This document shows positions 25,381 to 55,799 of a stretch of DNA of 55,799 nt, in pieces (position 1 is the stretch's first letter; the number at the start of each line of letters is the position of its first letter). The position numbers were made by a program, and so were the translations under genes. The notes beneath the pieces are model-generated. The model searched no databases and was not told the origin of the DNA. It saw only the letters and a program-made list of their open reading frames with translations. The stretch is from an uncultured Prevotellaceae bacterium (GTDB lineage: Bacteria > Bacteroidota > Bacteroidia > Bacteroidales > Muribaculaceae), in the NCBI GenBank assembly GCA_900318645.1, contig ONLH01000020.1:1-55799 (forward strand), read 5' to 3'.

Positions 25381-25385
25381 AGGAT

Positions 25386-25448: not shown

Positions 25449-25497
25449 TCTGTGCTGGGGCTCTTGCCACTGGCATAAGCTAAAAAATAATCATATC

Positions 25498-26498: not shown

Positions 26499-26583
26499 GC
26501 ATCATGGCCTTCGGTTGGCACGATAATTGCAATATTCCTATACATTTTACCCGATTTACACAACAAATTAACACATCAACATT

Positions 26584-35084: not shown

Positions 35085-35133
35085 GAAAAGAATCTATTGG
35101 CTAAAATGTTACCCTGCCTTTTTATATCATTGG

Positions 35134-37307: not shown

Positions 37308-37310
37308 TAA

Positions 37311-38588: not shown

Positions 38589-38595
38589 GCTTCGA

Positions 38596-39903: not shown

Positions 39904-42315
39904 TTATTCCCATTCACCAAGCAATATGTAATTGATCAGTGCTGTCACATCATCGATATTGACGCGGCCATTATTATCGCAGTCAGCATTAGGTGTAGCA
40001 TTGCCCGTGAGCAAGACATCAATGAGTGCAGTCACGTCATCAACCGTCACGTTTCCGTTGCCGTCAACATCACCGCGCAGATTCTCACCAGCCTTGAGAA
40101 CAACCTCCTTGGTATTACTCCAGTTGCTTTCCGTACCATTGACATACAGAGCTTTCACACGATACAGATAAGGAGAAGCGGGCGTGAGGCCAGTCACAGT
40201 ATAGAACATGTCAGGAGTGATGCCCTCGATCAAACGGAACTCGCTATCACCACTCTCTGAAGCCCTGAATTCAAAGGGCTCAGGATCAGTGATTTCTCCA
40301 CCGTAAATCTTGATACTCTGAATCTCAGGATAATATCCCGTGATGATCTTGACGAAGCCATGATCGCCTACAGGGAGTACTACCAGATAAGTATCAAGTT
40401 CTTTGGCCAGAACGATATCTTCAGCAGCCTCATCAGTCGTTACTGTGATTGTCGTATTCGAGCCTTTGGGATAAGCTTTAGCCTTGATGATGACACTCAC
40501 GGTACTGTAACCCATCAAATCGCAGTTGGGATTGAATGAGCAATTACGGTTAGCCGAAACGAAACCTCCATCCAGATAGAAATAATTACCGGTGAAAGTC
40601 CAGCCATCGGGCAGATAATTGGTAGCATCGGCTGCATGGTTGGTATCATCCTCAGGTACATCGCTCCAATCAGCCTCGGTGAGCAATACTACATCAGGTT
40701 TGAGTCTCACCTCAAGGGAATAGCTGAGAACGTTCTCGACGGGAGTCCTGTCGGTCCAGTCGGCACGGAACGAAGTTGACGTTACCATTGCCTGATCAGC
40801 ATCCTGCATAACCGGACGATAGAGCTCATACTCCGAAGCACCTGACAAATTGATTACAATATCATCTACACCCTCGGCACTAACAACAACGGTAGCAGTA
40901 TAATTGCCCTCGGCCTTGGGAGCATAGGTCACATTGACAGCCTCATTCACTTTACCCTCCTCATCAGGAGTGATGGAAGTCTTGTCAAGGATGAAGACGC
41001 CATTCTCGTCATTGAGTGTCAAGGTCACATCAGTATCCAGATTAGAGCCCTTCAAAGTAAATTTGGAGCTCTGGGTCTGGTTCTTGAAGCATTCCATCGA
41101 CAATTCGCTCTTATCGGTTCTGAGGCGCGGCAGTTTCAACGGGGGCTGGATGCCGATCACCATCTGCTGATACTGGTTGAAGGTTGAACCCTGGCCATTG
41201 AAAGAGTTGAGGGCATAATAGTTGTTGGAAACACCGCTCCAGCCAAAGTTGATGTGGTACTTGTTGGTGTTGGCATCATAGCCATCGACGTTAAAGGCAT
41301 GGCCACCGCCAAAGAAACCGCCAGCGATAGCACAGAACACGATGGGACGTCCCTCGACGAGCTCATCCTGCATGATGGCAGCCCATTCAGCATCGGTATA
41401 AAGGGTCGTTCCGCCGCTATAGGCGCTCGTCTTCTTGACTACGCGAACAGTCTCTTCATCATAGCCAAATAACTTGAATGCATTAGCAATCAGGATGACG
41501 CTGTCAGCATCCACACCGCTACCACCGGCAGCGCTGGTACCATAGGCCATGTGTTCGGCCTGACCCACATAACGCATCAGAGTAGCCACGGCGTTGGCCT
41601 CTTCGGTTGTATAAGAACCTGAATAGGTATCACGCATGTGCTCCCAGTCAAAAGTCACGGGAGGCAATGCTGCGACATTGACATAAGAGGCTGATCCCCA
41701 CATCGAAGTGCTCAATTCACAACGATAGGCAGGAACCTCAGGTGTCTCAAAGTCGGGATATTTCCAATAGTGGAATACCATCGCAGCCGAAGTGGCAGGA
41801 CAGCCAGTCAAGCACTGATTATTGTTGATCTTACACATGTTCCAGTAAGGCGCTTCCTGGTCCCATAAAGCGGTCAACAGGGGAGCGACACTGGGTATGC
41901 GTGCAGGAGCCATCAGCGACGGAGCCTGTGCCACCATATTTTCATGAGCCTGCAGGTATTCTATCTGCTCCTTCAACATGGCAAACAATGCCTTCATGTT
42001 GCAGGGAATGTTATTGTAATCCAAGGGATAATCACCGTAGCCCAAGATTCTCTCGGCACGGTCATCACCCGAAACTACGACATGTCCATTGCTGGTATTG
42101 AAGATATAGAACACAGGACGATCAAACATCTTGGAATTCATCTCCACATGTGCCAGCTTCATCTCTCCCGAAATGGGAGCCTTGAGCTTACCACCATACA
42201 GCTGTTGCTGAACGAACTTTTGCGCTTCGGTCTGTGCTGATCTCAAATCAACCGGAGCAGCAGTAGCCTGTGCCACCGCAAACATCAATGCGACAAAGAA
42301 TAAAATTTTTCTCAT
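39904..42315 (-). CDS. Secreted C10 peptidase with dockerin-like C-terminus (array member 1)
   Basis: 803 residues: signal peptide (1-19), Spi-type propeptide (about 20-130) and C10 peptidase domain (about 140-392), with nucleophile Cys172 in LTGCPATSAAMV and His339 in GGGHAFNVDGY, followed by INFGWSG. An Ig-like domain (about 397-495) follows. An FN3-like fold comes next, its first half near 'SFRADWTDRTPVENVLSYSL' and second half near 'EGITPDMFYTVTGLTPASPY', with an inserted cassette (DWSDV...LPDGWTF...) between. The dockerin pair is GDVDGNGNVTVDDVTALIDV and ADCDNNGRVNIDDVTALINY. The protein has a short EWE tail and no CxxC linker, unlike most paralogs. Its propeptide and catalytic domain are closest to the large peptidase at 7.7 kb (both have TSAAGGSGV and VVKKTSAYSGGTTLY or FVKKTSAYSGGTTLY). 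Confidence 0.9.
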   Translation of the reverse strand: MRKILFFVALMFAVAQATAAPVDLRSAQTEAQKFVQQQLYGGKLKAPISGEMKLAHVEMNSKMFDRPVFYIFNTSNGHVVVSGDDRAERILGYGDYPLDYNNIPCNMKALFAMLKEQIEYLQAHENMVAQAPSLMAPARIPSVAPLLTALWDQEAPYWNMCKINNNQCLTGCPATSAAMVFHYWKYPDFETPEVPAYRCELSTSMWGSASYVNVAALPPVTFDWEHMRDTYSGSYTTEEANAVATLMRYVGQAEHMAYGTSAAGGSGVDADSVILIANAFKLFGYDEETVRVVKKTSAYSGGTTLYTDAEWAAIMQDELVEGRPIVFCAIAGGFFGGGHAFNVDGYDANTNKYHINFGWSGVSNNYYALNSFNGQGSTFNQYQQMVIGIQPPLKLPRLRTDKSELSMECFKNQTQSSKFTLKGSNLDTDVTLTLNDENGVFILDKTSITPDEEGKVNEAVNVTYAPKAEGNYTATVVVSAEGVDDIVINLSGASEYELYRPVMQDADQAMVTSTSFRADWTDRTPVENVLSYSLEVRLKPDVVLLTEADWSDVPEDDTNHAADATNYLPDGWTFTGNYFYLDGGFVSANRNCSFNPNCDLMGYSTVSVIIKAKAYPKGSNTTITVTTDEAAEDIVLAKELDTYLVVLPVGDHGFVKIITGYYPEIQSIKIYGGEITDPEPFEFRASESGDSEFRLIEGITPDMFYTVTGLTPASPYLYRVKALYVNGTESNWSNTKEVVLKAGENLRGDVDGNGNVTVDDVTALIDVLLTGNATPNADCDNNGRVNIDDVTALINYILLGEWE

Positions 42316-42406
42316 AAAAAATAATATATATGTTTATAATTCTGTGAATCAGGACCTTGTGCTAAAAAAACGCCATTGCACCACGCAATGACACGAAAAA
42401 CATTCA

Positions 42407-42438
42407 CAAAAGTACATAAAAAAACGACAAATCAGCAA
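42407..42438 (-). promoter_or_regulatory. Promoter of array member 1
   Basis: On the minus strand, TTG (42438-42436), 21 bases, then TACTTTTG (42414-42407). The leader of about 85 bases holds a small hairpin (CATTGC...GCAATG, 42374-42390). Confidence 0.55.
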
Positions 42439-42542
42439 CATTTTTAAAGAAAAAAATCAAAAATAATAAATATACATTATGCAGTTTTTTCCGTGAGGTG
42501 TATTTTCATGTGTGAAAAGGGGTGAAAACATAACAGAAAAAC

Positions 42543-42584
42543 AACGGAGATGATGGCGCTTCATGACGCTCCGTCATCTCCGTT
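42543..42584 (-). terminator. Terminator of array member 2
   Basis: AACGGAGATGA (42543-42553) pairs with TCATCTCCGTT (42574-42584), with a further small stem inside. On the minus strand it is followed by GTTTTTCTGTT, a good U-tract, 25 bases after the stop. Confidence 0.88.
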
Positions 42585-42609
42585 GCTATACAACGATTCT
42601 ATCTGAAAA

Positions 42610-44985
42610 TCAATTCCCTAAGAGCAAATCAATCAGAGTGGTCACATCAAGAATGCTGATTGCTTGGTCTCCATTCACGTCGGCACATATTTCGCAAGCC
42701 TCGCCAGCACTCAACAGATAATCAATCAACCGTGACACGTCAACAATGCTCAGTTTGCCGTCATGGTCCACGTCACCAGGGCTGAAGGCATGGCCGCCGT
42801 CGACCAACGTCACCATCTCCACATTGCTCCAGTCGCTCTCGGTTCCATCAATATAGAGCGCTTTCACATGATAGAGGAACGATCCTCCAGAGGCCAAATC
42901 CTTAACAGTATAGCTCTTGCCCGCTGCAATGCCCGTGACGAGACGATAATGATCGTCACCCGCCTCAGAGGCCTGCAACGTCGTGCCCTGGGTAGCATCG
43001 CCAGCGTAGATTTTAATATTCTGTATCATCGGGTAGTAGCCTGCCTTGAATTCAATCTGCTCGGTCTCGTTACAATCAACAACGATGGTCTTGGTCTCAT
43101 AGGAATACATAAAGATGAGTTCCTGTGTTCCGTGACTGGTTGTGACATACAGTTCCGAACCATCACCATAAAAACCATAAGCTTTCGCCGTGACCTCAAT
43201 GGTCATCTTGTCATATCCCCTGATGGAAATCTCATCGGTAGTAATCGTGCTGTTGCGGCGCAGGCTGACGCAGCCACCCTCAAGGTTAAACTCACTGCCA
43301 TTGAAGGTCCAACCTTCAGGCAGATAATCGGCAGCATGCGACGCCTGATTGGCAGGCGCCATCTCAGGCAGAGAGCTGAAATCGGCCTCTTCCAACAAAC
43401 TGTAAGCGGGTTTAGCTTGTACCTCAAGGGTGTAGCTCGACACATTGTTTGATGGGGTCTCATCAGTCCATTGGGCGACAAATGACGTGAGCGTCACTCT
43501 CTCCTCGTTGACAGGCTGCATCACGGGAGGATAAATCTCAAGGGGTGCCGTGCCATTCAACGTGACCGTGACAGGATCGGTATTCCGGCTGGTACAGATG
43601 ATGGTAGCAGTATGATTACCGACAACACTTGGCGAATAGGTCACTGTCAAGTCATAACCAGCCTCGGCCAGATCTCGAGCCACAGTTACTGCATCGACAG
43701 TAAACACCCCGTCAGGATCGTTCAAGGCCAATGTCACGTCATCGGTGAGGTTGGTTCCCTTGAGGCTAATGGTTGCCGTAACGGTTTGATTGATATAACT
43801 CTGCATTTCAACCACTGTAGGATACACCTGAAGGCGAGGGTTCATATAATCTTCAGGCGGCTGAATGCCGATGACCATCTGCTGCGCTGTGCCGAAGGTA
43901 TACCCCTGGTAGGTGAACGCATGCAAGGCAAAGTTTCCGTTTCCCCTGCCGTTCCAGCCCCAATTGATGTGATAAGTGTCGCTCATCGCATCATATCCAT
44001 CAACATTGAAGGCGTGTCCAGCGCCAGTCGTGTTATCGTAGGCGCAATACACGATGGGGCGACCGGCTGTCAATTCGTTTTGAATCAACGCTGACCATTG
44101 GGCATCACTGTAATTCTCATAGCCCAACTCATCGGACTTGAAAAGCATCTGAGCATCAGGATCGTATTCAAAATGCTTGACGGCACGCAGGATGTCCTGC
44201 AGATAGGCACCACTGCCCGAAATCGTGTAATCCATCTCCTCGGCCTGACCTATATAACGCATCAAGTGGGCGACGGCCGTGGCTTGGGTCTCGGTATAGT
44301 TGCCCCCAGCATAGTTGTCAATCATATTGCTCCAGTCAAACACCGTGGGAGGCAGTTCGGGTTGCACCACACCGTAAGAAGGCATCTGGTAGGACGGCAC
44401 TGCCGGGGTCTGCTGCTTGGGGTATTTCCAGTAATGGAACACCATTGCCAGCGACGTTGCAGGGCAACCTGTGTAGCAGGTGTCGGTGCCAAAGGCGGGG
44501 CACTCATTCCAGTAGGGTGCATTCTGGCTCCAATTGGCGGTAATGAGCGGATTGACCGACAGGCTGGCGCGCTGCGGAGCATTCAAGGAAGGTCTCGACA
44601 CCTGAATGCTTGGGTTGGCTTGAAGAAATTCCATTTGACGTTTATAACATGACAGCCAGTACTTCATGTTTCCTGGCAGATTGTTCATGTCAATGGGGCC
44701 GTCACCGTAGGCCAGTACCTCCTGAGCCCGGTCATCGCCCGCGACAATCACAAAGCAATTACTGGCATTGAAGATATAATAGGCAGGAGTCGTTGCTGAC
44801 TTGGAGTTCCATTCGACATGAGCCAGTTGAAGGCTACCTTGTGCTGGTGCCATCATTATGCCAGTGGCGGACCGGCCAGCAATGAAATGGAATGCAGCGG
44901 CTTGAGCTGCTTTCTCATCAACATGGGCAGTCCAAGCTTGAGTTGCCGCCAACAACATGACGGCAAGGAAAAGGATTCTTTTCAT
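42610..44985 (-). CDS. Secreted C10 peptidase with dockerin-like C-terminus (array member 2)
   Basis: 791 residues with the shared plan. The signal peptide is MKRILFLAVMLLAATQAWTA. The active site is Cys174 (YTGCPATSLAMV) and His324 (GAGHAFNVDGY), with INWGWNG after it. The Ig-like domain begins at about 'PRLQVYPTVVEMQSYINQTV', and the FN3 halves flank the 'LPEGWTFNGSEF' cassette. The dockerin pair is GDVDHDGKLSIVDVSRLIDY and ADVNGDQAISILDVTTLIDL, with CEIC in the linker. It may be kept inactive by the propeptide until secretion, as in SpeB. It has its own terminator. I see no perfect promoter in its 150-base upstream gap, which begins with the terminator of member 3. Confidence 0.9.
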   Translation of the reverse strand: MKRILFLAVMLLAATQAWTAHVDEKAAQAAAFHFIAGRSATGIMMAPAQGSLQLAHVEWNSKSATTPAYYIFNASNCFVIVAGDDRAQEVLAYGDGPIDMNNLPGNMKYWLSCYKRQMEFLQANPSIQVSRPSLNAPQRASLSVNPLITANWSQNAPYWNECPAFGTDTCYTGCPATSLAMVFHYWKYPKQQTPAVPSYQMPSYGVVQPELPPTVFDWSNMIDNYAGGNYTETQATAVAHLMRYIGQAEEMDYTISGSGAYLQDILRAVKHFEYDPDAQMLFKSDELGYENYSDAQWSALIQNELTAGRPIVYCAYDNTTGAGHAFNVDGYDAMSDTYHINWGWNGRGNGNFALHAFTYQGYTFGTAQQMVIGIQPPEDYMNPRLQVYPTVVEMQSYINQTVTATISLKGTNLTDDVTLALNDPDGVFTVDAVTVARDLAEAGYDLTVTYSPSVVGNHTATIICTSRNTDPVTVTLNGTAPLEIYPPVMQPVNEERVTLTSFVAQWTDETPSNNVSSYTLEVQAKPAYSLLEEADFSSLPEMAPANQASHAADYLPEGWTFNGSEFNLEGGCVSLRRNSTITTDEISIRGYDKMTIEVTAKAYGFYGDGSELYVTTSHGTQELIFMYSYETKTIVVDCNETEQIEFKAGYYPMIQNIKIYAGDATQGTTLQASEAGDDHYRLVTGIAAGKSYTVKDLASGGSFLYHVKALYIDGTESDWSNVEMVTLVDGGHAFSPGDVDHDGKLSIVDVSRLIDYLLSAGEACEICADVNGDQAISILDVTTLIDLLLGN

Positions 44986-45074
44986 GTAGTCCGATTTTAT
45001 TTTAAGTGTTTATGATAATAGTAGCTACAAAATCAATTCATTTCTCATGGATTTCATTCTCCAGAAGTATAAAA

Positions 45075-45106
45075 GGTGGGGCAAAAGCAAATACTATTAC
45101 CCCACC
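45075..45106 (-). terminator. Terminator of array member 3
   Basis: GGTGGGG (45075-45081) pairs with CCCCACC (45100-45106); on the minus strand CCTTTTATAC follows. It lies 30 bases after the stop at 45136. Confidence 0.8.
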
Positions 45107-45135
45107 ACCATATAACAATACTGTATCAGACCAAA

Positions 45136-47523
45136 TTAATTACTGCCCAACAGCAGGTTGATCAAGGCCGTCACATCCTCAATGCTGATGCGGGCATCAC
45201 CATTCACGTCGGCACAGGTAGTACTGATTTCTCCCTCGGACAACAGATAGCTGATAAGGTCGGTCACGTCCTGAATGCTTAACTTGCCATCGTTGTTCAC
45301 GTCACCAGGCTGGTAGCTCAGGCCGTTGTCCGACAAGATTACATAGCTGCTCTTACTCCATGGGCTAATGGTGCCGTCAATATAATGCGCCTGGACCCTG
45401 TAATAGAAAGATCCGGCAGCGGTAAGACCAGTGACGGTGTAATGCTTGTCGGTAATGCCCGTGATGAGGCGATACTCGGCGCTCCCCTCTTCGGCGATAG
45501 CACGCATCTGGGGGTGGTCCTCCTCGCCAGCATAGATCATAATGCTCTGGAACACGGGGAAATTGCTCTTACCGGCGATTGTCACTTGATCCGCCTCGCT
45601 GCAGTCCAGCACAGCCACATAGTCGGTGAATGGGGAGCCGCCAGGAGCAGAGAATTCCTGCTGATCAACACCAGTAGAAACAATGAATTTTGAACTGCTC
45701 TGGTTCATGGAAGATTTGGCCCTGACGATAACAGTTACCTTTTCATAGCCCGACAGATCATACATCGGCGAGATCAGCGAACTCCTGTTATTGATGGAAA
45801 TGCCTGCCTGCTCACACCACAAGCCGTTACCGGCAAAAGTCCACTCCTCGGGCAACAATTCCTCGGGGTAGTCGGCATAGTTGCTGGAATTCTCCACAAC
45901 ATCACTCCAATCAAGTTCACCGATAAGGGTGAAGCCGGGTCTGGTATTCACCTCAAGGGTATAGCTATCTACATACTTATCGGTAGTCTCATCGGTCCAT
46001 TCGGCAAGGAACTCGGTCAATCCGATGCGGGCACCGTCAGCGGGAAGCATCACCGGAGTGTATACGTCAAGGGTAGCCGTTCCATTGAGAGTAATGGTCA
46101 CATCCTCGGCTTCAGGACTGCTCAAGGTAATCGTTGCGGTATTGCTGCCGCTTGCAAGCGGCGCATAGGTCACGGTAACGACCTTTCCTGAGTCCAAGTC
46201 ATTGAGTGCAACGCTGGTGGCATCCATCGAGAACACGCCATCAGGATCATCAAGCGTCATTACCACGTCATCGGTCAGGAACTTGCCGTTGACAATGAAA
46301 CTGGCCGTGGAACTCTGGTCCACAAAAGCCTCTATATCAATCTGGCGAGGTGCCACAATGATTGTTGGCGTTGTGATGGGCGGATGGATTCCGATGATCA
46401 TCTCCTGCTCGATGTTGAACGAGTAGTCCCTGTAACTGAAGGCATTCAACGCAAAGTCACCGTTGCCGAGACCACTCCAGCCCCAATTCACATGATAGGT
46501 GTCGGTAGCGGCAGTATAACCATCCACATTGAAAGCATGGCCGCTCCACCCGCGCTGGTCATTGTAGTCAAAGGCGCAATACACCACGGGGCGTCCCTCG
46601 AACAACTCATTCTGGAGTATTGCTGCCCACTCCTCGTCGGTATAGAACTCCTGCATCTCGTTGCCGAAATTATCGGCCATGGACTTCATCAGCAGATCGG
46701 CCTCCTCGTCATAGCCGAAAAACTTGACCGTACGCAAGATATCGCTGCCCCTAGCACCGCTGCCGTCCACAGAATAGTCCATGTGTTCCTCCTGGCCGAT
46801 GTAACGCATCAGCCAAGCCACGGCATCGGCCTGGGCTTCATTATAGTTGCCCTCTATATACTCGTCGAGCATATTGTCCCAATCAAATGTAATGGAAGGC
46901 AAGGCAGGCAAACTGACTACATAGTTGAATGCCGGAACCGGAGGCGTCGGTTCAACGGGGAATTTCCAGTAATAGAACACCATCGACAACGATGTGGCAG
47001 GACAACCTGTCAAGCAATATTCACCGTTGATGACGGGGCAGTGGTTCCAGTAAGGCTCAGCTTGGTCCCACAGGGCCGTGAGCATCGGGGGAACTGTCGT
47101 AGAAGCCGAACGGCCCGTTATGCGCGGCGCATCAACCTCTATGCCAGGGCGTTCCTGCAGGAAAACCATCTGACGCTTATAGGTGTTGAGCCAGTTCTTC
47201 ATGTTCTCAGGCATACGTGCAAAGTCCAACGGACGGTCGCCCCATGCCAGAATCTGGCGCGCCCTGTCATCGCCTGCAACAATGACAAAGCCTTGCTCAC
47301 TATTGAAAATATAATAAACAGCCTGGTCGGCGCGCGACGGGTTCACCTCGGTGTGAAGCAACTTCACATCAGCGGCCTTAACGGGGGTTCCACGATGCCC
47401 CGAGGGCGCGAAATCTTGCAGGAAACGCGTCGCAGCGGCTTGAGCTTGAGCGACATCAACATCGGCTGCCATCGCCGGCATCATCGCCAACAACAGCAAG
47501 GCACATAACAATAATTTCTTCAT
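45136..47523 (-). CDS. Secreted C10 peptidase with dockerin-like C-terminus (array member 3)
   Basis: 795 residues. The signal peptide is MKKLLLCALLLLAMMPAMA. The propeptide keeps the 'YYIFNSEQGFVIVAGDDRAR' core seen in all paralogs. The peptidase has Cys174 (LTGCPATSLSMV) and His329 (WSGHAFNVDGY), with VNWGWSG. It is very close to member 4 in this domain (both have KFFGYDEE and GQEEHMDYS/T). The tail carries the jelly-roll-like 'LPEEWTFAGNGLW' cassette. The dockerin pair is GDVNNDGKLSIQDVTDLISY and ADVNGDARISIEDVTALINL; the linker has only one Cys (STTC). It is the member nearest to member 4 by front end, yet it differs from it in the tail cassette. Confidence 0.9.
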   Translation of the reverse strand: MKKLLLCALLLLAMMPAMAADVDVAQAQAAATRFLQDFAPSGHRGTPVKAADVKLLHTEVNPSRADQAVYYIFNSEQGFVIVAGDDRARQILAWGDRPLDFARMPENMKNWLNTYKRQMVFLQERPGIEVDAPRITGRSASTTVPPMLTALWDQAEPYWNHCPVINGEYCLTGCPATSLSMVFYYWKFPVEPTPPVPAFNYVVSLPALPSITFDWDNMLDEYIEGNYNEAQADAVAWLMRYIGQEEHMDYSVDGSGARGSDILRTVKFFGYDEEADLLMKSMADNFGNEMQEFYTDEEWAAILQNELFEGRPVVYCAFDYNDQRGWSGHAFNVDGYTAATDTYHVNWGWSGLGNGDFALNAFSYRDYSFNIEQEMIIGIHPPITTPTIIVAPRQIDIEAFVDQSSTASFIVNGKFLTDDVVMTLDDPDGVFSMDATSVALNDLDSGKVVTVTYAPLASGSNTATITLSSPEAEDVTITLNGTATLDVYTPVMLPADGARIGLTEFLAEWTDETTDKYVDSYTLEVNTRPGFTLIGELDWSDVVENSSNYADYPEELLPEEWTFAGNGLWCEQAGISINNRSSLISPMYDLSGYEKVTVIVRAKSSMNQSSSKFIVSTGVDQQEFSAPGGSPFTDYVAVLDCSEADQVTIAGKSNFPVFQSIMIYAGEEDHPQMRAIAEEGSAEYRLITGITDKHYTVTGLTAAGSFYYRVQAHYIDGTISPWSKSSYVILSDNGLSYQPGDVNNDGKLSIQDVTDLISYLLSEGEISTTCADVNGDARISIEDVTALINLLLGSN

Positions 47524-47597
47524 ATAAATAATCGGTTAATCAGTAATACTCAATTGATGGCAACCGTCACCAGTTACAATGGTTGAAGCACGAGGCG

Positions 47598-47605
47598 CAA
47601 AGTTA
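47598..47605 (-). promoter_or_regulatory. -7 element upstream of array member 3
   Basis: On the minus strand TAACTTTG (47605-47598) matches the consensus, about 75 bases ahead of the ATG at 47523; no TTG is seen at the expected -33 distance. Confidence 0.45.
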
Positions 47606-47675
47606 CAAAAATCCATTGAAACTTTCATTACTGACTGTAATTAAAATGTAATATGGCAGGATTACCCATCAAAAA

Positions 47676-47710
47676 CTGAGGCCCAAGAGCCAAAGACACT
47701 TGAGCCCCAG
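47676..47710 (-). terminator. Terminator of array member 4
   Basis: CTGAGGCCCAAG (47676-47687) pairs with CTTGAGCCCCAG (47699-47710) with mismatches in the middle; TTTTTGATGGG follows on the minus strand. Confidence 0.78.
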
Positions 47711-47732
47711 TAGAGATAAAATGTTCAGTTCA

Positions 47733-50114
47733 TCAATTACCGGCCAACAAGAGATTAATCAGGGCGGTAACATCGGTAATATTGACATTACCGTCTCCAT
47801 CAACATCGGCGCAAATGGTGCAGATTGCACTGTCATCACCCTTCAATAGATAGTTGATCAACTCGGTAACATCCACGATGCTCACCTTGCCATCATGGTC
47901 CACGTCACCAGGGGCATAAACGTGTCCATTTTCAAACAAGGTCACCTTCTGAGAGTTACTCCAACGGCTCTGAGTGCCATCGGCATAAATTGTCCTTACT
48001 TTATAATAGAACGTACCAGATTCGGTAAGATCCTTGACAGTATAGAACTTATCGGTAATGCCTGTGATGAGACGGTAGCTGGCATCGCCATCCTCAACAA
48101 CAGCCCTCAGCGAATTCAACTCATTGACGTCGCCGACATAGACCTTGATCATCGCCATGTCAGGTGAGAAGTAGTCATCGGTTGATGTAATGGTAATCTT
48201 CTCGCCTTCGCTGGCAGTCACAAGCCAGGAATGAGTCTCATTAGCATTGAACTCGTGGCCGACTGACGGCGTCTGGTTGGAACCGACAGTGATGTTGCCA
48301 GAGCCATAAGTTCCACTGACGGTTGTAATCTGCATTGTGAAGACAGCATCGGTGTAGCCTTCGGGCACGGTATAGGAGATGTAGCCATCATCGTTGTAGT
48401 TGTTGAAGTAAACCGCGTTGTGACCAGCCATTACACCGTTGCCACTCCAGGGAGCCGAAAGCGTCATGCTCTCATAGCTGCCGGTATAGATGCTGCCATC
48501 GATGGAGTCAAGCAATTCAACAGCAGGTCGGGTTGCCACTTCGAGTGTATAGCTCTCAACGTTATCGGCAGGAGTCTCGTCGGTCCAATTGGCACGGAAC
48601 TGGGTCAGGTTGATAAATGCGCTGTCGGCGGGCAGCATATAGGGAACGTAAGTCTCCAGGATTGCGGTGCCATTGATCGTGATGACCTTGTCCTCGGCAT
48701 CAGGATTGCTCAGGGTGATTGTAGCCGTGTGGGTGCCAACTGCGGTGGGCGCATAGGTCACAGTAATCACCTTGCCTGCCTCCTGCTCACTGACGTCAAC
48801 ACTGGTTGCATCAATCGAGAACACGCCGCTCTCGTCATTGAGCGTGAGGTCTATAGCACTGTTGAGGAGCTGACCCTTGACCTTAACCGTTGCGGTAGCT
48901 GTCTTGCCAGGATAGGCATTCATTTCCAGCTTGGAGGGATTTATCTTGATAGACGGTCCCTGGGCGGGCGGCTGGATACCCATAATCATCTGTTGCTCAA
49001 TGTTAAACGTATAACCGCTGCTGGAGAAGGCATTCAGGACGAAGTCGCCATTGCCGTCTCCGCTCCAGCCCCAATTCACGTGATAGGTATTGTCGCTAGC
49101 GGTATAGCCGTCCACGTTAAAGGCATGTCCACTCCAGCCCCAATAGGAGTAATCATAACCACAATAAACGACGGGGCGGCCCTCGGCAAGCTCATTCTGG
49201 AGCAAAGCAGCCCATTCGTCATCGGTATAATATACTGCCGTGTCGTTGCCGTAGTCATCGGTACGGGTTTTGAACTCAAGGCGAGCCATCTCCTCATCAT
49301 ATCCGAAGAACTTAACGGCACGCAGGATGTCAGCGCCCATGGCACCGCTACCGCTGGGAGTATAGTCCATGTGCTCTTCCTGTCCGACATAACGCATCAG
49401 CCATGCCACAGCATCGGCTTGGGCGGGGGTGTAATTACCCGTGTACTTGTCCAGCATATTGTCCCAGTCAAATGTGATAGACGGCAGAGCAGGAATCTGG
49501 AATCCATAGCTCTCATTGGTATAACCCTCGACTTCAGGAGTGGGGTCAGTCGGATACTTCCAGTAGTAGAACACCATCGACAGCGAGGTAGCGGGGCAAC
49601 CCGTCAGGCAATACGAGCCATTGTACATGGGGCAATGGTTATAGTAAGGAGCATCCTGGTCCCACTCGGCTGTGAGCAGCGGTGCTACATCAGGTGTTCT
49701 CAGGCTCTTGTTTAATTTGGGCTGATCAACGACCATGCCAGGATGAGCCTGCAGAAACTCTATCTGTTTCTTGTAAGTACCCAGCCAGAACTTCATATTG
49801 TCCGGCATGCGCTTCATGTCCAGGGGACGGTCACCGTGAGCAAGTATCTGATGGGCACGGTCATCGCCCGAAACGATTATAAACCCTCTACTGGAGTTGA
49901 AGATGTAATAAGCTGCCTGTGTGGCGCTTGATGAATTTTTCTCGGTGTGGATCAGCTTGAGATCACCGGCTGAAACACCCTGGAATCCTTTTACTTTGGC
50001 GTTCGCTGTGAGGAAACGTCTTGCTGTTGCCGAGGCTTGAGCCAAATTAACATCGGCTGCAGAGACCTGCATGACGGCCAACAGCATGGTGGCAAGCAAT
50101 AATAATTTCTTCAT
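47733..50114 (-). CDS. Secreted C10 peptidase with dockerin-like C-terminus (array member 4)
   Basis: 793 residues, with signal peptide MKKLLLLATMLLAVMQVSA. Cys173 (LTGCPATSLSMV) and His330 (WSGHAFNVDGY) are present with VNWGWSG. It is the only array member whose FN3-inserted cassette is of the second type: 'DSIDGSIYTGSYESMTLSAP', 'TVSGTYGSGNITVGSNQTPS', 'SVGHEFNANETHSWLVTASE', 'STDDYFSPDMAMIKVYVGD'. This is the same module that is duplicated in the large peptidase at 7.7-11.2 kb. The dockerin pair is GDVDHDGKVSIVDVTELINY and ADVDGDGNVNITDVTALINL, with CTIC in the linker. It has a good promoter and a terminator of its own. Confidence 0.9.
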   Translation of the reverse strand: MKKLLLLATMLLAVMQVSAADVNLAQASATARRFLTANAKVKGFQGVSAGDLKLIHTEKNSSSATQAAYYIFNSSRGFIIVSGDDRAHQILAHGDRPLDMKRMPDNMKFWLGTYKKQIEFLQAHPGMVVDQPKLNKSLRTPDVAPLLTAEWDQDAPYYNHCPMYNGSYCLTGCPATSLSMVFYYWKYPTDPTPEVEGYTNESYGFQIPALPSITFDWDNMLDKYTGNYTPAQADAVAWLMRYVGQEEHMDYTPSGSGAMGADILRAVKFFGYDEEMARLEFKTRTDDYGNDTAVYYTDDEWAALLQNELAEGRPVVYCGYDYSYWGWSGHAFNVDGYTASDNTYHVNWGWSGDGNGDFVLNAFSSSGYTFNIEQQMIMGIQPPAQGPSIKINPSKLEMNAYPGKTATATVKVKGQLLNSAIDLTLNDESGVFSIDATSVDVSEQEAGKVITVTYAPTAVGTHTATITLSNPDAEDKVITINGTAILETYVPYMLPADSAFINLTQFRANWTDETPADNVESYTLEVATRPAVELLDSIDGSIYTGSYESMTLSAPWSGNGVMAGHNAVYFNNYNDDGYISYTVPEGYTDAVFTMQITTVSGTYGSGNITVGSNQTPSVGHEFNANETHSWLVTASEGEKITITSTDDYFSPDMAMIKVYVGDVNELNSLRAVVEDGDASYRLITGITDKFYTVKDLTESGTFYYKVRTIYADGTQSRWSNSQKVTLFENGHVYAPGDVDHDGKVSIVDVTELINYLLKGDDSAICTICADVDGDGNVNITDVTALINLLLAGN

Positions 50115-50199
50115 AAATCAATGGTTAACTAGTTGAATAAAAGATGATTAATTAACAAACTCGGTTTACAACCGTACAAATATGCTTAAAAAAAGCATG

Positions 50200-50229
50200 C
50201 AAATTTAGACAATTTATTACAATCAACAA
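50200..50229 (-). promoter_or_regulatory. Promoter of array member 4
   Basis: On the minus strand, TTG (50229-50227), 19 bases, then TAAATTTG (50207-50200). A small hairpin (ATGCTT/AAGCAT, 50182-50198) lies at the start of the leader. Confidence 0.62.
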
Positions 50230-50291
50230 CAAAAAATAGTAGTATTTCAACAAAATATTAACACAAACAACAACTATAGGATGCGTACAAA

Positions 50292-50324
50292 TTAGGGGTT
50301 GTACCCATAAGGCACAACCCCTAA
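50292..50324 (-). terminator. Terminator of array member 5
   Basis: TTAGGGGTTGT (50292-50302) and its exact complement (50314-50324) form an 11-bp stem with an 11-base loop, 22 bases after the stop. Confidence 0.85.
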
Positions 50325-50346
50325 AATATTCAATGATTTAACCTAA

Positions 50347-52740
50347 TTAATTGTGACTCAACAAGAGGTTAATCAGGGCAGTCACATCGGCAATGTTGAC
50401 TTTCTCATCACCGTTGACATTGGCGCAAGTGGTGCAAATAGTAGAATCGTCACCACTCAGCAAGTAGTTGATCAAGGCAGTCACGTCAGCGATGCTCACC
50501 TTCTTGTCGTGGTTCACGTCACCTACAGAATATTCATGAGCAGGAGTATCATTCTCCTTCAAGGTAACTTGCTCGATATTGCTCCATGCGCTCTCGGTAC
50601 CATCGGCATAGTGTGCCTTCACCTTGAAGAAGTAGGTGCTCTCAGCATTCAAGTTATTCACGGTGTAGGACTTCTCGGTGATGCCACTGATTACATAATG
50701 AGAAGCGTCACCCTCCACTGTAGCGCGCATCTGCGGAGTTACCTCACCAGCATAGATCTTAATAGCCTGGATGGTGGGGTTCCAAGCATCTGCATAGAAT
50801 TCAATCTGATCAGTTTCAGCGCAGTTCAATACAATCGTATAATCAACATAACTATTGGTCAAATCCAGAGTCTTCTGATCAACACTGGTTTTAACGGTAA
50901 TTGTTGATGCAGTCCAACCATAGTAGTTCTTAGCCCTCATCACTACAGTAACCTTTTCTTGTCCAGCGAAGTCAAGGACATCGGTCTTGATGTAGCTTTC
51001 GGAGGTGATAGCAATACCGCCCTCATCAAAGAAGATCGAGTAATCACCGTAGGTCCAACCCTCAGGCAGAGCACTGGGTGCACTACCGGTAGCATTACTC
51101 CAATCTACCTCGGCAAGCAGACCACCTGCACCGGGTTTCTCCTTCACATCCAGGGTGTAGCTGAGAACATTCTCGGGAATGGTCTGGTCGGTCCAGTCGG
51201 CACGGAACGAAGTCAGATTGATGTACTGCTCGGCTGCAGGCTGCATCACGGGAGCATAGACCACAAGAGGAGCGGCAGTTGCGACACCCTTCAGCTCAAC
51301 AGTCACATCAGAAGCGCCCTCGCTGCTCAGGGTGATGGTGGCATTGTTGGTGCCTACCTCCTGAGGTGCATAGGTCACAGTGACGGCCGTGCCCAGATCA
51401 TTAATACTGATTGTGGTAACGTCAATGCTGAATACGTCATCGGCTTCATTCAGGGCAAGGGTAATATCACCAGTCAAGTGAGCACCGGTAACGTTGAACG
51501 TAGCGGTAGTGGTCTCACCAACATAGCACTCCATGTTGAGAGCATCGGTCGAGGTATAGACGTGGGGATCGGTCGTGAGGGTGGGATCCTGCACGTCGGC
51601 AAACAGGATGGGGAAGAAGTCATAGACCGTCATGCCATTATCAAGGGTGAAGCCGTTGAGTGCATAGTAAGTGTTCTTATCAGCGCTCATACCGAAGTTC
51701 ACGTGATACATGTCATTCTCAGCATCATAGCCATCGACATTAAAGGCATGGCCACCGATGCCGGTAGAGTCGCTCGACATGTCAAAGGCGCAATAAATTA
51801 GGGGACGGCCAGCAATCAGCTCAGACTGGATCAGTTCGCCCCACTCTTCCTCGGTGTAGTTGACGCTACCATCGTCAAAGTCCCACTTCTCAATCACGTG
51901 GGCATCACGATAACCAAAGGTGCGGAGGGCCAGCATGATTTCCTCGCGCTCTGCACCACTCTTATCCAGACCATAGTCCATCGTCTCGGCCTGACCCACA
52001 TAGCGCATGAACCAGCTGATGGCGTCAATCTGTGCATCGGGAATCTGGTCGATACCACTTGAGCTGCTGGGGTAAGAGTCACGCATGTTGTCCCAGTCGA
52101 AGGTGTACTCGGGCAGGTCTTCAATTACGTAACCTGAGGTCGGGCAGGTGTAGCCGGGAAGAGCGGGAGAAACCTTGGGATACTCCCAATATCTCATCAC
52201 CTGAGCCAGTGCTACAGCCGAGCAGCCCACCTTGCAATAGGGATCCTGACCAGAACCCTTCTTGGGGGTCTTCATGTTGTAAGGCTTGCCCTGGTTCCAA
52301 GCGGTGGTCAACAGCGGTCCTACCGAAACGCCGCCACGGTAGATGGCCTTCTGCACCTTCAGTCCGGGATGAGCCTGCAAGTACTCCATCTGCTTCTGGT
52401 ACATGTTCAGGAAGAGCTGCATGGCCTCGGGCAGATCATTGAGGTTCTCCAACTGGCCTTCGCCGTAAGCGAGAATCTCGCGAGCACGGTCATCACCAGC
52501 GACGATGACATAGCCACGGTCGGTGTTGACGATGTAGTAAGCTGCCTGTGCGACATTGCTTGAGTTCTTCACCTCACGGGTCGACGTGATGGTCGGCTGC
52601 GAGGCCATAAGGCGACCGTTGGCGGTCTGGCCCATCAAGAAACGTTGTGCAGACTGCTGGGCGGTAGCCAGGTCCACATTGGCTGCCGTGAGTTGCAACG
52701 AAGCAACTACGAGCGCAGCAAGTAAAAGGATTTTTTTCAT
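50347..52740 (-). CDS. Secreted C10 peptidase-like protein, altered active-site region (array member 5)
   Basis: 797 residues. The Cys173 region is KVGCSAVALAQV, not LTGCPATS, and the Trp-Gln segment is AWNQGKPYN; both look more like streptococcal SpeB than like the other paralogs. His331 (IGGHAFNVDGY) is kept. The following motif, which is HVNWGWSG or HINFGWSG elsewhere, is HVNFGMSADK here: the second aromatic (Trp) is Met351 and the Gly pair is lost. This Trp lies next to the active site in SpeB, so activity or specificity may differ. The tail has the 'LPEGWTYGDYSIF' cassette and the dockerin pair GDVNHDKKVSIADVTALINY and ANVNGDEKVNIADVTALINL, with CTTC between. It starts 46 bases after member 6 without a terminator, so the two are probably co-transcribed. 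Confidence 0.88.
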   Translation of the reverse strand: MKKILLLAALVVASLQLTAANVDLATAQQSAQRFLMGQTANGRLMASQPTITSTREVKNSSNVAQAAYYIVNTDRGYVIVAGDDRAREILAYGEGQLENLNDLPEAMQLFLNMYQKQMEYLQAHPGLKVQKAIYRGGVSVGPLLTTAWNQGKPYNMKTPKKGSGQDPYCKVGCSAVALAQVMRYWEYPKVSPALPGYTCPTSGYVIEDLPEYTFDWDNMRDSYPSSSSGIDQIPDAQIDAISWFMRYVGQAETMDYGLDKSGAEREEIMLALRTFGYRDAHVIEKWDFDDGSVNYTEEEWGELIQSELIAGRPLIYCAFDMSSDSTGIGGHAFNVDGYDAENDMYHVNFGMSADKNTYYALNGFTLDNGMTVYDFFPILFADVQDPTLTTDPHVYTSTDALNMECYVGETTTATFNVTGAHLTGDITLALNEADDVFSIDVTTISINDLGTAVTVTYAPQEVGTNNATITLSSEGASDVTVELKGVATAAPLVVYAPVMQPAAEQYINLTSFRADWTDQTIPENVLSYTLDVKEKPGAGGLLAEVDWSNATGSAPSALPEGWTYGDYSIFFDEGGIAITSESYIKTDVLDFAGQEKVTVVMRAKNYYGWTASTITVKTSVDQKTLDLTNSYVDYTIVLNCAETDQIEFYADAWNPTIQAIKIYAGEVTPQMRATVEGDASHYVISGITEKSYTVNNLNAESTYFFKVKAHYADGTESAWSNIEQVTLKENDTPAHEYSVGDVNHDKKVSIADVTALINYLLSGDDSTICTTCANVNGDEKVNIADVTALINLLLSHN

Positions 52741-52786
52741 AAAAACAATGATTTATTAAATGAATAAAAAAGAGTGTTCGTTATCA

Positions 52787-55186
52787 TCAGTTGTTGGACA
52801 GCAGCTTGTCGATAAGTGCTGTAACATCAGCAATGCTTACCTTGTCATCACCGTTGACATTGGCACAAACGGTACAGATGACGGTTTCATCACCACTCAG
52901 CAGATAGTTAATCAAGTCGGTCACGTCCTTGATGCTGATTTTGTCATCATGGTTAACATCGCCTACCTCATGACCATGAGGAAGAGGACCATTGTCCTTC
53001 AGGGTAACCTCCTCGATGTTACTCCAAGCGCTCTCGGTACCATCGTTGTAGAAGGCTTTCACCTTGTAGAGGAAAGTGCCTTCGGCGGTCAGGCCTGATA
53101 CGGTGTAGAACTTGTCGGTGATGCCGGTAATGGTGCGCCAAGTGGCGTCGCCTTCCTCGGTGGCACGCATCTGGGGTGCAGGCACTTCACCGGCATAAAT
53201 CTGCATGTTCTTGAAGCCGGGATTGCCGCTCTTGTTGGCAATGGTTATCATGTCGGATGCGGCACAGTCAAGCACGACCACATACTGGTCAAAGACTCCA
53301 TAGGTCAAAGCCAAATCCTTAGAGTCAACACTTGTCGAAACCGTAACAGCCGCCTGCGAATAACTACCCTTGCCGGTAAACACTACAGTCACCTTCTCGG
53401 CACCAGCCATATCATAGGTCGGGGTTGAGAATCTGGCATTACCGGTAATCGAGACATAACCGTCTTCGGCCCACAAGTCACTACCAGCAAAAGTCCAACC
53501 GCTGGGGAAATACCTGGCAGCGTTAGCCGTCTGAGCCGAGAAACTCTCAATGGTATTGCTCCAGTCCACCTCATCGATAAGGACATAACTGGGCTTGGTG
53601 CTCACCTCAAGGGTGTAGCTGGTAACATTCTCGGCAGCGGTCTCGTCGGTCCAGTCGGCACGGAACGAGGTCAGAGCGATATAATTCTCATTGGCGGGCA
53701 GCATGACGGGATCATAGACTACCAGCGGAGCAGGAGCTGCCATTCCCTTGAGAGTGACAACCATGTCCTCGGCACCAGTACTGCTCAAGGTAACGGTGGA
53801 TATGTTTTCGCCCACGGCGGTGGGGTCATAGGTCACGGTAATCACCTTACCGTCCTTGGCGTCAGCAATCGTTACTTCAGTGGCATCAAGGGCAAACACG
53901 CCATCAGCGTCATTCAGTGTCAGGGTAATATTGTCATTAAGCAGTCTGCCCTTGACAGTGAACGTGGCGGTCACGGGCTCGCCCAGGCGGGTTGCCATCT
54001 CCAGTTCGGCGGGATTCACTTTGATGGTCGGAGCTACTGCAATCGAGGGATAAATGTTCTTTACAATGCGTTGGCCCAAGTGGTAATTTGAGCCCTGGTT
54101 TGCAAAAGCATTCATGGCAAAATTGCCATTACCAACGCCGCTCCAGCCCCAGTTGATATGGAAAGTGCCGTCGCTGGCATCATAGCCATCGACGTTAAAG
54201 GCATGGCCCGAGTAACTGTGGTAAACATTGCTATAGTCAAAAGCACAGAAAACAAAGGGGCGACCCGCCAAGAGTTCCTCCACCATCAGTGCATGCCAGT
54301 CCTCATCGTTGATATAGGTGGTTTCCTCACCCGTCTCAAAGTTCATAGTTGCCTTATAGACAGCGACAGCATCCTCATAGCCAAAGGTCTCACAGGCCCT
54401 GACGATATCATCCTCCCAGGCATCGCTACCTGCTTTGTCATAGTTCATTCGCTCGGCCTGGCCGATGTAACGCATCAGTTGGGCTACGGCAGTTGCATTA
54501 ACTGTTTCATATTGTCCCAGCCTATAAGTGGGGAGCATATTATCCCAATCAAAGGTCACCGAGGGCAGAGCATCGAGGGTGAATTTGCCATTGTTGGTCG
54601 TATAGCCAGGAACTACCGGCGTGGGCTCGGTGGGATATTGCCAGTGATAGAACACTTGGGCAAGCGACGTGCAGGCGCAACCGGTTAAGGCTCGGGTATC
54701 ACCATCTCTGGGGCACTGACCATAATAGGGTGAACCTTGGTCCCACCTGGCCTCGAGCATCTCTTCAACGCTCTGGCCGTCACGGAAGACGGGCTTCTTT
54801 ACTACCATGCCGGGATGGGCCTGCAGATACTCCATCTGCTGCTTGTAATAGCTGAGCCAGAACCTCATATTCTCAGGCAGGCTCTTCATGTCCTTAATTT
54901 CAGTATCACCATAGCCCAGAATCTCTTGAGCACGGTCATCACCCGACACGATGACGAAGCCCCTATCGGTATTCACGATATAGTATGCGACCATATCGGC
55001 TCGGCTGGAATTGCGCTCCTGATGAATCCATTTCACCGCAGGAGCTGAAGTCATCAGGCGGCCTTTGTGAGCCTTATTCATCAGTAAACGTTGGGCAGTG
55101 TGCTGAGCTGTCGCAAGGTCGACTTGACCTGCGGATACAGTAATAGCCGCCAATACTAGCATGGCTAGGCACAATAATTTCTTCAT
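52787..55186 (-). CDS. Secreted C10 peptidase with dockerin-like C-terminus (array member 6)
   Basis: 799 residues, with signal peptide MKKLLCLAMLVLAAITVSA. The nucleophile is Cys170 in ALTGCACTSLAQVFYHW, a third variant of this motif; His328 (YSGHAFNVDGY) is followed by INWGWSG. The last strand of the peptidase is 'LGQRIVKNIYPS' where the others have QQMVIGIQPP. The tail has the 'FPSGWTFAGSDLW' cassette. The dockerin pair is GDVNHDDKISIKDVTDLINY and ANVNGDDKVSIADVTALIDK, with CTVC in the linker. It has a strong promoter and probably leads a two-gene transcript with member 5. Confidence 0.9.
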   Translation of the reverse strand: MKKLLCLAMLVLAAITVSAGQVDLATAQHTAQRLLMNKAHKGRLMTSAPAVKWIHQERNSSRADMVAYYIVNTDRGFVIVSGDDRAQEILGYGDTEIKDMKSLPENMRFWLSYYKQQMEYLQAHPGMVVKKPVFRDGQSVEEMLEARWDQGSPYYGQCPRDGDTRALTGCACTSLAQVFYHWQYPTEPTPVVPGYTTNNGKFTLDALPSVTFDWDNMLPTYRLGQYETVNATAVAQLMRYIGQAERMNYDKAGSDAWEDDIVRACETFGYEDAVAVYKATMNFETGEETTYINDEDWHALMVEELLAGRPFVFCAFDYSNVYHSYSGHAFNVDGYDASDGTFHINWGWSGVGNGNFAMNAFANQGSNYHLGQRIVKNIYPSIAVAPTIKVNPAELEMATRLGEPVTATFTVKGRLLNDNITLTLNDADGVFALDATEVTIADAKDGKVITVTYDPTAVGENISTVTLSSTGAEDMVVTLKGMAAPAPLVVYDPVMLPANENYIALTSFRADWTDETAAENVTSYTLEVSTKPSYVLIDEVDWSNTIESFSAQTANAARYFPSGWTFAGSDLWAEDGYVSITGNARFSTPTYDMAGAEKVTVVFTGKGSYSQAAVTVSTSVDSKDLALTYGVFDQYVVVLDCAASDMITIANKSGNPGFKNMQIYAGEVPAPQMRATEEGDATWRTITGITDKFYTVSGLTAEGTFLYKVKAFYNDGTESAWSNIEEVTLKDNGPLPHGHEVGDVNHDDKISIKDVTDLINYLLSGDETVICTVCANVNGDDKVSIADVTALIDKLLSNN

Positions 55187-55271
55187 AATCAGATAGTTTA
55201 TAGTTTATTACAAAATCAGGTTCAGTGAAAATGGTATCTTGGCCCTTAGCTATAACAAGCTAAGAACGCGA

Positions 55272-55301
55272 CAAAGATAAGAGAAAAAAATTAAAAACCA
55301 A
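55272..55301 (-). promoter_or_regulatory. Promoter of array members 6 and 5
   Basis: On the minus strand, TTG (55301-55299), 19 bases, then TATCTTTG (55279-55272). The leader is about 80 bases. The rest of the gap 55302-55461 is AT-rich and I see no gene in it. Confidence 0.7.
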
Positions 55302-55461
55302 CGATTTCTTCAAAAGAATGTATAAATAAGCAAGAAATAAATGTTCTAATCCACCCAAAGCCATTAAGAAGAATCAATAGAAATCTTTGGGACTGGATAT
55401 CCAGTTGCTCTTAGCCTTTGGTATTGATTTCATTAACACGGTATTATAAGCAGTACATCAC

Positions 55462-55490
55462 AAAAAGAGGGCACGCCTAAACGTGCCCTC
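55462..55490 (-). terminator. Terminator of array member 7
   Basis: GAGGGCACG (55467-55475) pairs with CGTGCCCTC (55482-55490); on the minus strand TTTTTG follows directly. This is a textbook intrinsic terminator. Confidence 0.9.
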
Positions 55491-55520
55491 AGCAATCATG
55501 GGGTAATCAGAATATAGTGC

Positions 55521-55799
55521 TTATTCCCCTAACAGCAAAAAATTGATAAGGCTTGTCACATCACTAATATTCACACGGCCATTCTGATCAGCATCGGCAC
55601 AAATGGAGCAGCCCTCCTGACCATCATTCAGCAAGTAGTTAATCAAGTCCGTCACATCAACGATGGAGAGACGACCATCATGGTTCATATCACCCGGTTG
55701 ATAGCCATGTCCTTCACCATGCAGGACAACGGTCTTGGCCTTGCTCCAAGGGCTCCAGGTGTCGTCGGTGTAATGGGCCTTCACGCGGAAGAAGAAGGT
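55521..55799 (-). CDS. C-terminal end of a further dockerin-like protein (array member 7), cut by window edge
   Basis: Only the last 92 or so codons are in the window. The frame is open to the edge and reads FFRVKAHYTDDTWSPWSKA, matching the second FN3 half of the other members ('YKVKAIYTDGTSSAWSN' and similar). It then has the dockerin pair GDMNHDGRLSIVDVTDLINY and ADADQNGRVNISDVTSLINF with CSIC between. A GTG at 55784 is an internal Val codon, not a start. By position and tail it should be another C10 peptidase, but the catalytic domain is out of view. Confidence 0.8.
   Translation of the reverse strand, partial: TFFFRVKAHYTDDTWSPWSKAKTVVLHGEGHGYQPGDMNHDGRLSIVDVTDLINYLLNDGQEGCSICADADQNGRVNISDVTSLINFLLLGE

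Follow-up and report, generated by a model that had tools for sequence, protein, structure and literature searches.

A tandem array of dockerin-tailed C10 protease genes in a Bacteroidales bacterium, and candidate cohesin partners in the same genome

The window analysed here is a whole stretch of 55,799 nucleotides (assembly GCA_900318645.1, contig ONLH01000020.1) from an uncultured Prevotellaceae bacterium, placed by GTDB in the Muribaculaceae and related to rumen species. A preliminary description had placed in it a head-to-tail array of at least seven dockerin-tailed genes, six of them complete, on a single strand. This arrangement was confirmed, since six full-length minus-strand open reading frames of 803, 791, 795, 793, 797 and 799 aa fill that position, followed by a cut seventh gene that keeps its dockerin. 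Two further genes of the window, both absent from that description, are listed with them:

7719..11180, plus strand: further C10 gene, 1153 aa; I69 propeptide, two Ig/FN3 pairs and a type IX-like tail, without dockerin
11346..12545, plus strand: BspA-type leucine-rich-repeat (LRR) protein, 399 aa, with a C-terminal dockerin; belongs to the dockerin-tailed set
39904..42315, minus strand: p1, 803 aa; signal peptide, I69, C10, Ig-like, split FN3, dockerin
42610..44985, minus strand: p2, 791 aa; architecture as p1; GCPATS
45136..47523, minus strand: p3, 795 aa; architecture as p1; GCPATS
47733..50114, minus strand: p4, 793 aa; architecture as p1; GCPATS; copy chosen for structure prediction
50347..52740, minus strand: p5, 797 aa; architecture as p1; GCSAVA
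52787..55186, minus strand: p6, 799 aa; architecture as p1; GCACTS
55521..55799, minus strand: 3′ end of the seventh array gene; terminal FN3 part and dockerin only

The common architecture proposed for the six proteins is borne out by Pfam, where Peptidase_C10 (E 4.9e-43 to 9.8e-52), Inhibitor_I69 (Spi) and Dockerin_1 all lie above the curated cut-offs in every one of them, and the catalytic domains thus align with C10 peptidases as expected. The split FN3 was recovered in the predicted structure of p4, against which single FN3 chains align over about 90 residues scattered across residues 486-729 of the model. The catalytic Cys and His had been reported as kept in all six, and they are indeed invariant there (Cys172 and His339 in p1) as well as in 85 of 85 intact copies from the window and its relatives; broken copies do not enter this count because the underlying trees used only intact copies longer than 600 aa. 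The residues following the Cys do differ, with GCPATS in four proteins, GCSAVA in one and GCACTS in one, and the p5 lineage carries Asn-Phe-Gly-Met at the Asn-Trp-Gly-Trp stretch. Moreover, the p4 model, with Cys173, His330 and Asn347 as catalytic residues, has the SpeB/interpain fold with its inhibitory propeptide. On this model the array proteins are C10 protease zymogens with intact catalytic residues, and proteolytic activity is predicted for them.

As the contig ends at position 55,799, the protease domain of the seventh gene lies out of view. Its stop is 334 bases from the start of p6, and the 92 aa that remain contain a dockerin (Dockerin_1, E 6.8e-10 in Pfam) and match at about 73% the tails of C10 genes in the loci L102, L077 and L093 of relatives, so that, going by this similarity, a C10 domain is likely to lie upstream, beyond the contig end. 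An inspection by eye of the other C10 matches of the genome found none at a contig end that resembles the missing part. Altogether, 29 C10 genes are encoded in this 3.6 Mb genome; a sorting-type tail occurs on two of them only (P0008 and C51), and no C-terminal sorting domain was found on the six array proteins, each of which ends in its dockerin with 0-2 residues after it.

Among the intergenic signals, sigma-70-like promoters (30 observed, against 20.2, sd 3.9, in shuffles) and simple terminators (14, against 12.4, sd 4.2) were left unused as evidence. The motif TAnnTTTG occurs in four of the six gaps (P 0.037 by Markov simulation), and was found within 200 bases upstream of 20 of 20 genes of the p1 lineage versus 35 of 59 genes of other lineages.

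The history of the copies was followed in trees of the window and 19 of 68 loci, these 68 being the best of 271 confirmed places, picked by similarity to the array with p1 first. In the 19 loci the p1 orthologue is the final C10 gene of the run. Separate trees for catalytic domains and tails, as proposed beforehand, recovered the same lineages, with 10 label changes where the minimum possible is 9. Tails therefore track their proteases, and a general reshuffling of the two modules was rejected where the entire tail is concerned; individual dockerins, however, look to have been replaced in p1, whose dockerin is 56% identical to that of its orthologue while the protease is 96% identical, and in p5, where the synonymous difference from the L039 orthologue is 0.50 in the dockerin and 0.06-0.19 elsewhere. 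In four orthologue pairs, dN/dS was 0.02-0.05 over the whole catalytic domain and 0.19-0.34 in the dockerin, the module under least constraint. Positive selection around the active site found no support in these values for the whole domain.

These data also bear on whether the copies arose in a recent gene amplification and are redundant, all doing the same job. All six share one architecture and lie next to each other, the gene content of the run differs from relative to relative, and L048, L049 and L102 contain copies that are split or frameshifted, as such an origin would have it. Nevertheless, the catalytic domains are just 38-69% identical in pairwise comparison, the six genes fall into six separate lineages, each with orthologues in other species, tails and proteases have descended together, and dN/dS is far below 1. 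Redundancy is thus very improbable, being already largely refuted by the tree, and the six are distinct paralogues conserved over the long term. The earlier view of a secreted, docking-tailed and non-redundant system holds in its last part, near-identical copies being excluded, whereas secretion and docking are inferred.

At least 151 dockerin matches and 11 cohesin matches were found in the genome. In 81 of 91 proteins sampled, no more than 15 residues separate the dockerin from the C-terminus, and these 81 dockerins are of type I, with two repeats bearing the calcium-loop Asp/Asn and, uniformly, two calcium loops and an Ile preceding the last loop Asp. LRR proteins and peptidases are abundant among the sampled cargo, which includes M6 peptidases, subtilases (S8), Omp28 and an amylase, so that several dockerin bearers besides the C10 proteases are putatively secreted enzymes; no cellulase family was among 25 of the 29 Pfam families listed for 48 sampled dockerin proteins. 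On the cohesin side, a protein of the same genome has the cohesin fold in its predicted structure, the genus cohesin profile matches 5n5p (E 1.6e-7), and Pfam Cohesin was found in 14 of the 27 members of the genus cohesin set. One cohesin domain of this genome scores above the Pfam cut-off, and when the eight cohesin proteins were scanned over their full length, Pfam Cohesin was missing from five at E 0.001. The family was found in 52 of 101 genus genomes, a search that gave no match for this genome although the other scan had given one above cut-off; we suspect that a stricter first look caused it to be missed. No cohesin protein here has more than three matches (the maximum is C47, with one of its three weak), and relatives encode proteins with four and six tandem cohesins. 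All but one of the eight cohesin proteins bear a dockerin as well, and the cohesin-dockerin pairing could therefore be internal. The cohesin genes C40 and C46 lie close to C10 genes, a proximity that may be due to chance.

Based on these data, the explanation that we propose, and whose chances we regard as about even, is that the proteases are part of a large cohesin-dockerin surface complex, their dockerin tails binding the cohesins of the genome. The array would encode secreted zymogens of the SpeB/interpain type, with a signal peptide and an inhibitory I69 propeptide to be removed, in which the protease is carried on Ig/FN3 spacers terminating in a calcium-binding type I dockerin. This dockerin would serve as an assembly tail for cohesins encoded elsewhere, several of them borne by proteins that have type IX-like tails and would hence be displayed at the cell surface. 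Since matching cohesin domains are encoded in the genome, the enzymes may come together in complexes at the surface, and by docking to such carriers the proteases would become members of them, together with amylases, subtilases, M6 peptidases, nucleases and LRR proteins; in the rumen, the substrates may be protein from food or from microbes. Against such a complex stand the small number of cohesins relative to dockerins, their low number per protein, the chance that they pair with dockerins of their own proteins, and their patchy detection by Pfam, both across the genus and within this genome. The same scarcity, with dockerins exceeding cohesins by more than 10:1, would suit a tail that is a calcium-stabilised terminal cap without cohesin partner, in which case the array would simply reflect the multiplication of secreted C10 proteases. 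Non-cellulosomal modules resembling dockerins are on record (Peer et al. 2009, as cited in PMC8542988), and the weaker constraint on the dockerin points the same way. We consider this rather unlikely, though a serious contender, given the cohesin-fold domains of the same genome, the uniformity of calcium loops and Ile in the 81 C-terminal dockerins, and the multi-cohesin proteins of relatives.

A different role for the tail is suggested by the type IX secretion system (T9SS), of which SprA, the sole part searched, is matched in this genome with 2657 bits. Of 61 genus genomes, 57 retain SprA, yet the sorting tail Por_Secre_tail gave only 2-8 matches in each of 37 genus genomes, as against at least 26 in 20 of 24 genomes from other families, and dockerins show the reverse, with at least 28 in 61 of 61 genus genomes and at most two in 23 of the 24, the scoring being capped at 57. 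M6 peptidases, subtilases, LRR proteins and Omp28 are, moreover, kinds of protein frequently exported by T9SS. A SpeB homologue is among the T9SS-tailed proteins of S24-7 genomes (PMC4936053). The dockerin might then have replaced the sorting tail and be recognised directly by the translocon, which we hold to be quite improbable: five proteins with dockerin, cohesin and tail, and one with dockerin and tail (L138), keep the sorting-type tail terminal and the dockerin internal, and the outgroup genome G063 has 71 sorting tails and 38 dockerins together. Furthermore, this genome holds 40 matches to a divergent tail of the GVNIVVTRYxDG type, some of them partial and 35 with E under 1e-6, so that type IX-like tails can hardly be called rare in it, PF18962 undercounts them, and the idea that such C-terminal domains are rare in this genome was given up in part. 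We call this tail type IX-like and not type IX because NCBIfam has no family for it as found on P0008 (TIGR04183 stays under its cut-off for one classical-looking tail) and because its profile comparison with the classical-looking tails of the genus (probability 82.8%, E 9.4e-6) spans 27 columns only. An extension of the proposed surface complex, speculative and on balance unlikely, is that a large share of the type IX-type cargo, almost every C10 protease among it, swapped its sorting tail for a dockerin and is brought to the surface, or retained there, through a small set of cohesin carriers whose own type IX-type tails persist; by docking to a few exported carriers, more than 100 interchangeable enzymes could be served.

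If this tail swap were true, it would mean that in Bacteroidota a cohesin-dockerin complex at the surface relies on a Gram-negative secretion system. Locus and genome supply concrete candidate partners in the dockerin proteases, the eight cohesin proteins and the translocon, and binding between them would reveal how a rumen lineage displays dozens of hydrolases, with protease rather than cellulase conspicuous. It would also link type IX secretion to cohesin-dockerin assembly, a connection that in the literature found had been made for Cloacimonadota alone, as an inference (PMC8542988).

Streptopain (SpeB) and interpain A (MEROPS C10) share with the array the I69-type propeptide and C10 domain, the fold and the catalytic residues, to which the array adds the Ig-like domain, split FN3, dockerin and tandem run, within a genome of 29 C10 genes; four are described for B. 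fragilis (PMC2873492). Cohesin-dockerin complexes are known chiefly from Gram-positive clostridia, which belong to a phylum other than that of the host. The clostridial and ruminococcal cellulosomes have type I dockerin loops and the cohesin fold in common with this genome, which differs in its low number of cohesins per protein and in its LRR- and peptidase-rich sampled cargo, with no cellulase among the Pfam families covered, while the Clostridium perfringens glycosidase complexes have other enzymes and another cell envelope. The mucinolysome of Limousia is likewise a gut complex with dockerin-bearing peptidases, but Gram-positive and with a sortase-type anchor (PMC12997984); the same source regards cohesins and dockerins in 78 Bacteroidetes MAGs as surprising and in need of investigation. 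Dockerins and cohesins also occur together in rumen Bacteroidetes bins, with at most 11 dockerins and two cohesins per bin in Table 1 of PMC6071333, bin 136 (five dockerins, one cohesin gene) being listed with the tandem-cohesin bins; the available text of that source describes neither a protease array nor a type IX link for them. A complex described for Ca. Stygibacter (Cloacimonadota), with protein, starch and chitin as proposed substrates, likewise has S8 and C25 peptidases and an amylase/mannosidase homologue that end in dockerins, and its scaffoldin-like protein, which combines cohesins with a C-terminal domain for holding it on the cell's own surface, is likened here to the cohesin carriers (PMC8542988). 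That system relies on a single scaffoldin of 3,755 aa with tandem cohesins and CBMs (PMC8542988), whereas the present genome belongs to the Bacteroidota and combines C10 proteases and its large dockerin set with mostly single cohesins, most of them beside a dockerin.

The six complete tandem genes and the cut-off one proposed in the preliminary description were recovered as six open reading frames and a terminal piece, all on the minus strand, and the C10 cysteine protease, the inhibitory I69 (Spi) propeptide and the dockerin ascribed to them scored above the Pfam cut-offs (Peptidase_C10, Inhibitor_I69 and Dockerin_1) in six out of six.

7719-11180, plus strand: P0008, a complete C10 gene of 1153 aa, the window's seventh
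34074-39564, minus strand: surface-polysaccharide type genes (epimerase, UDP-sugar dehydrogenase, deacetylase, glycerophosphotransferase, acyltransferase), directly adjoining the array downstream
39904-55186, minus strand: six complete array genes, p1 to p6, of 803, 791, 795, 793, 797 and 799 aa
last 279 bases of the contig, minus strand: 3' end of a seventh array gene, FN3 end and dockerin only

The contig ends at base 55,799, so the assembly truncates the run; its seventh piece is ~73% alike to the tails of C10 genes in three related loci (L102, L077 and L093). The six catalytic domains share 38-69% pairwise identity, and p1 is 40-46% identical to the other five genes. Near-identical copies with frameshifts had been named as a counter-sign: near-identity is not what these values show, and split or frameshifted array-type genes do occur in relatives (L048, L049 and L102), through decay or assembly error. 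The gaps between array genes measure 46-334 bases and TAnnTTTG appears in four of the six (P 0.037), as well as with 20/20 p1-lineage genes and 35/59 of other lineages, all of which gives a hint, and only that, of several transcription units rather than one tight operon. Elsewhere in the window, a TTTAGAC-type 7-base unit forms short tandem runs at 15805-15833, 25385-25449 and 26471-26499.

A scan of public genomes confirmed at least 271 related places, the best 68 of which were retained, with identity up to 86%. All 68 are titled as Bacteroidales MAGs (Prevotellaceae, Muribaculaceae, Porphyromonadaceae or Bacteroidales labels), several titles naming rumen or other stomach samples, and 25 carry at least three C10 genes in tandem, 12 of these runs touching the edge of the fetched piece. 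A tree built on 85 catalytic domains, taken from the window and 19 of these loci, groups p1 in one clade with the final C10 gene of the run in those 19; p2 to p6 represent five further lineages with orthologues elsewhere. The loci had been selected for resemblance to the array, p1 serving as lead sequence, a choice that favours p1 orthologues. The catalytic Cys and His, described earlier as kept, are invariant together with the active-site Gln and Asn in 85/85 of these copies, which were chosen as intact; 41 copies have Phe or Leu in place of the Trp adjoining the Asn. The array is genuine: a conserved set of C10 zymogens that adds members to a known family.

The tail tree recovers the same lineages as the protease tree (10 label changes, the minimum being 9), and dN/dS in four orthologue pairs was 0.02-0.05 for the protease and 0.19-0.34 for the dockerin. 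Between p5 (50347-52740) and its orthologue L039:2087-4480 the protein is 97-100% identical outside the dockerin and 73% within it. The synonymous divergence of this dockerin, 5-8 times that of the Ig/FN3 and protease parts, suggests from few sites that it alone was likely swapped by recombination.

The genome of the window, 91% complete at 3.6 Mb in 75 contigs, holds 29 C10 matches and at least 151 Dockerin_1 matches (307 first-look candidates, 150 of them scored). Traced to their end, 27 of the 29 C10 genes finish with a dockerin no more than 15 residues from the C-terminus and two with a sorting-type tail: P0008, which has two Ig/FN3 pairs and, in the position of the array genes' dockerin, a type IX-like tail of divergent sequence, and the C51 gene, with a classical-looking GIYIVNGKK end. 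A sample of 91 dockerin proteins of this genome was drawn from C10 genes and the genes beside them, from cohesin loci and from roughly one in two of the first 120 matches listed; in 81 of them the dockerin lies in the last 15 residues, and the remaining ten are five Doc-Coh-tail proteins, a Doc-tail protein (L138) and a further four (L134, L154, L160 and L174). The first and last Asp are conserved in 79/81 and 81/81 first dockerin loops, and in 74/78 and 80/80 second loops. By Pfam, 48 non-C10 dockerin proteins include BspA-type LRR (9), DUF285 (5), alpha-amylase, CBM26 and subtilase (3 each), M6, endonuclease I, Omp28 and CotH (2 each), plus others. As 40 matches to the divergent type IX-like tail occur in this genome, the standard Por_Secre_tail model undercounts such tails.

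Across 61 genus genomes, the window's included, C10 matches range from 1 to at least 28 (median 14) and dockerins number at least 28 in every one, reaching 57-59, the ceiling of the scoring, in 50; in 40 genomes from the order's other families, C10 matches are 0-9 (zero in 17) and dockerins 0-6, except 38 in G063. Por_Secre_tail is found 2-8 times per genome in 37 genus genomes, and in 24 other-family genomes at least 26 times in 20 and 0-5 times in four, a reciprocal pattern tempered by the 40 divergent tails of the window's genome. G063, the only dockerin-rich outgroup, also has 71 type IX tails and 9 C10 matches, and is possibly an intermediate or a second origin. The translocon protein SprA is present in 57/61 genus genomes, the four without it being 62-80% complete, and in 39/40 others. 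A second, short SprA-like gene (~480 aa, SprA positions 756-1199; G000:C41:64917-66281) recurs in seven genus genomes, lying at similar places in G021, G025, G035, G036, G051 and G054; in 4/7 the match contains a single TGA. Pfam Cohesin was detected in 52/101 genus genomes at E 0.01, 37 above cut-off; the window's genome is not among the positives of that search. Scaffold-like proteins of genus members combine tandem cohesins with a C-terminal dockerin, those of L108 and L110 opening with a signal-peptide-like stretch:

L108:744-3485, minus strand: six cohesins
L110:174-2918, minus strand: six cohesins
L107:971-2779, minus strand: four cohesins

SpeB and interpain are exported by Sec, held latent by their propeptide and then activated, and by analogy the array proteases would follow the same course. 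Their dockerins may dock to cohesins, which has about an even chance and is the best reading, since the genome offers domains with the fold expected of a partner and the dockerins have kept their features. Surface display would proceed via sorting-tailed cohesin proteins, and the dockerin-tailed protein might cross the outer membrane by itself, while docked to a carrier, or through being recognised directly.

In the titles and abstract openings of the open-licence PMC literature surveyed, dockerin-tailed C10 proteases were not found as a subject. Passages on S24-7 (Muribaculaceae) report streptopain homologues in 26 genomes, one among type IX-tailed proteins (PMC4936053). Tabulated rumen Bacteroidetes bins reach 11 dockerins and 2 cohesins, and bin 136 is listed with the bins that have cohesins in tandem (PMC6071333). 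Cattle rumen MAGs from Japan gave 200 dockerins and 18 cohesins across 25 MAGs that include 13 of Ruminococcus or Ruminococcus_E (PMC9763041). A passage of another rumen Bacteroidetes study states that cellulosomal components were not found (PMC5831590), and one in the Limousia paper flags as surprising 78 Bacteroidetes MAGs with cohesin and dockerin (PMC12997984). The wider system is a cohesin-dockerin set of Bacteroidota, rich in proteases and accompanied by a type IX translocon, a variant of known cohesin-dockerin systems; the nearest published idea among the papers surveyed is that of Ca. Stygibacter (Cloacimonadota), with its dockerin-tailed peptidases and CTD-anchored scaffoldin (PMC8542988).
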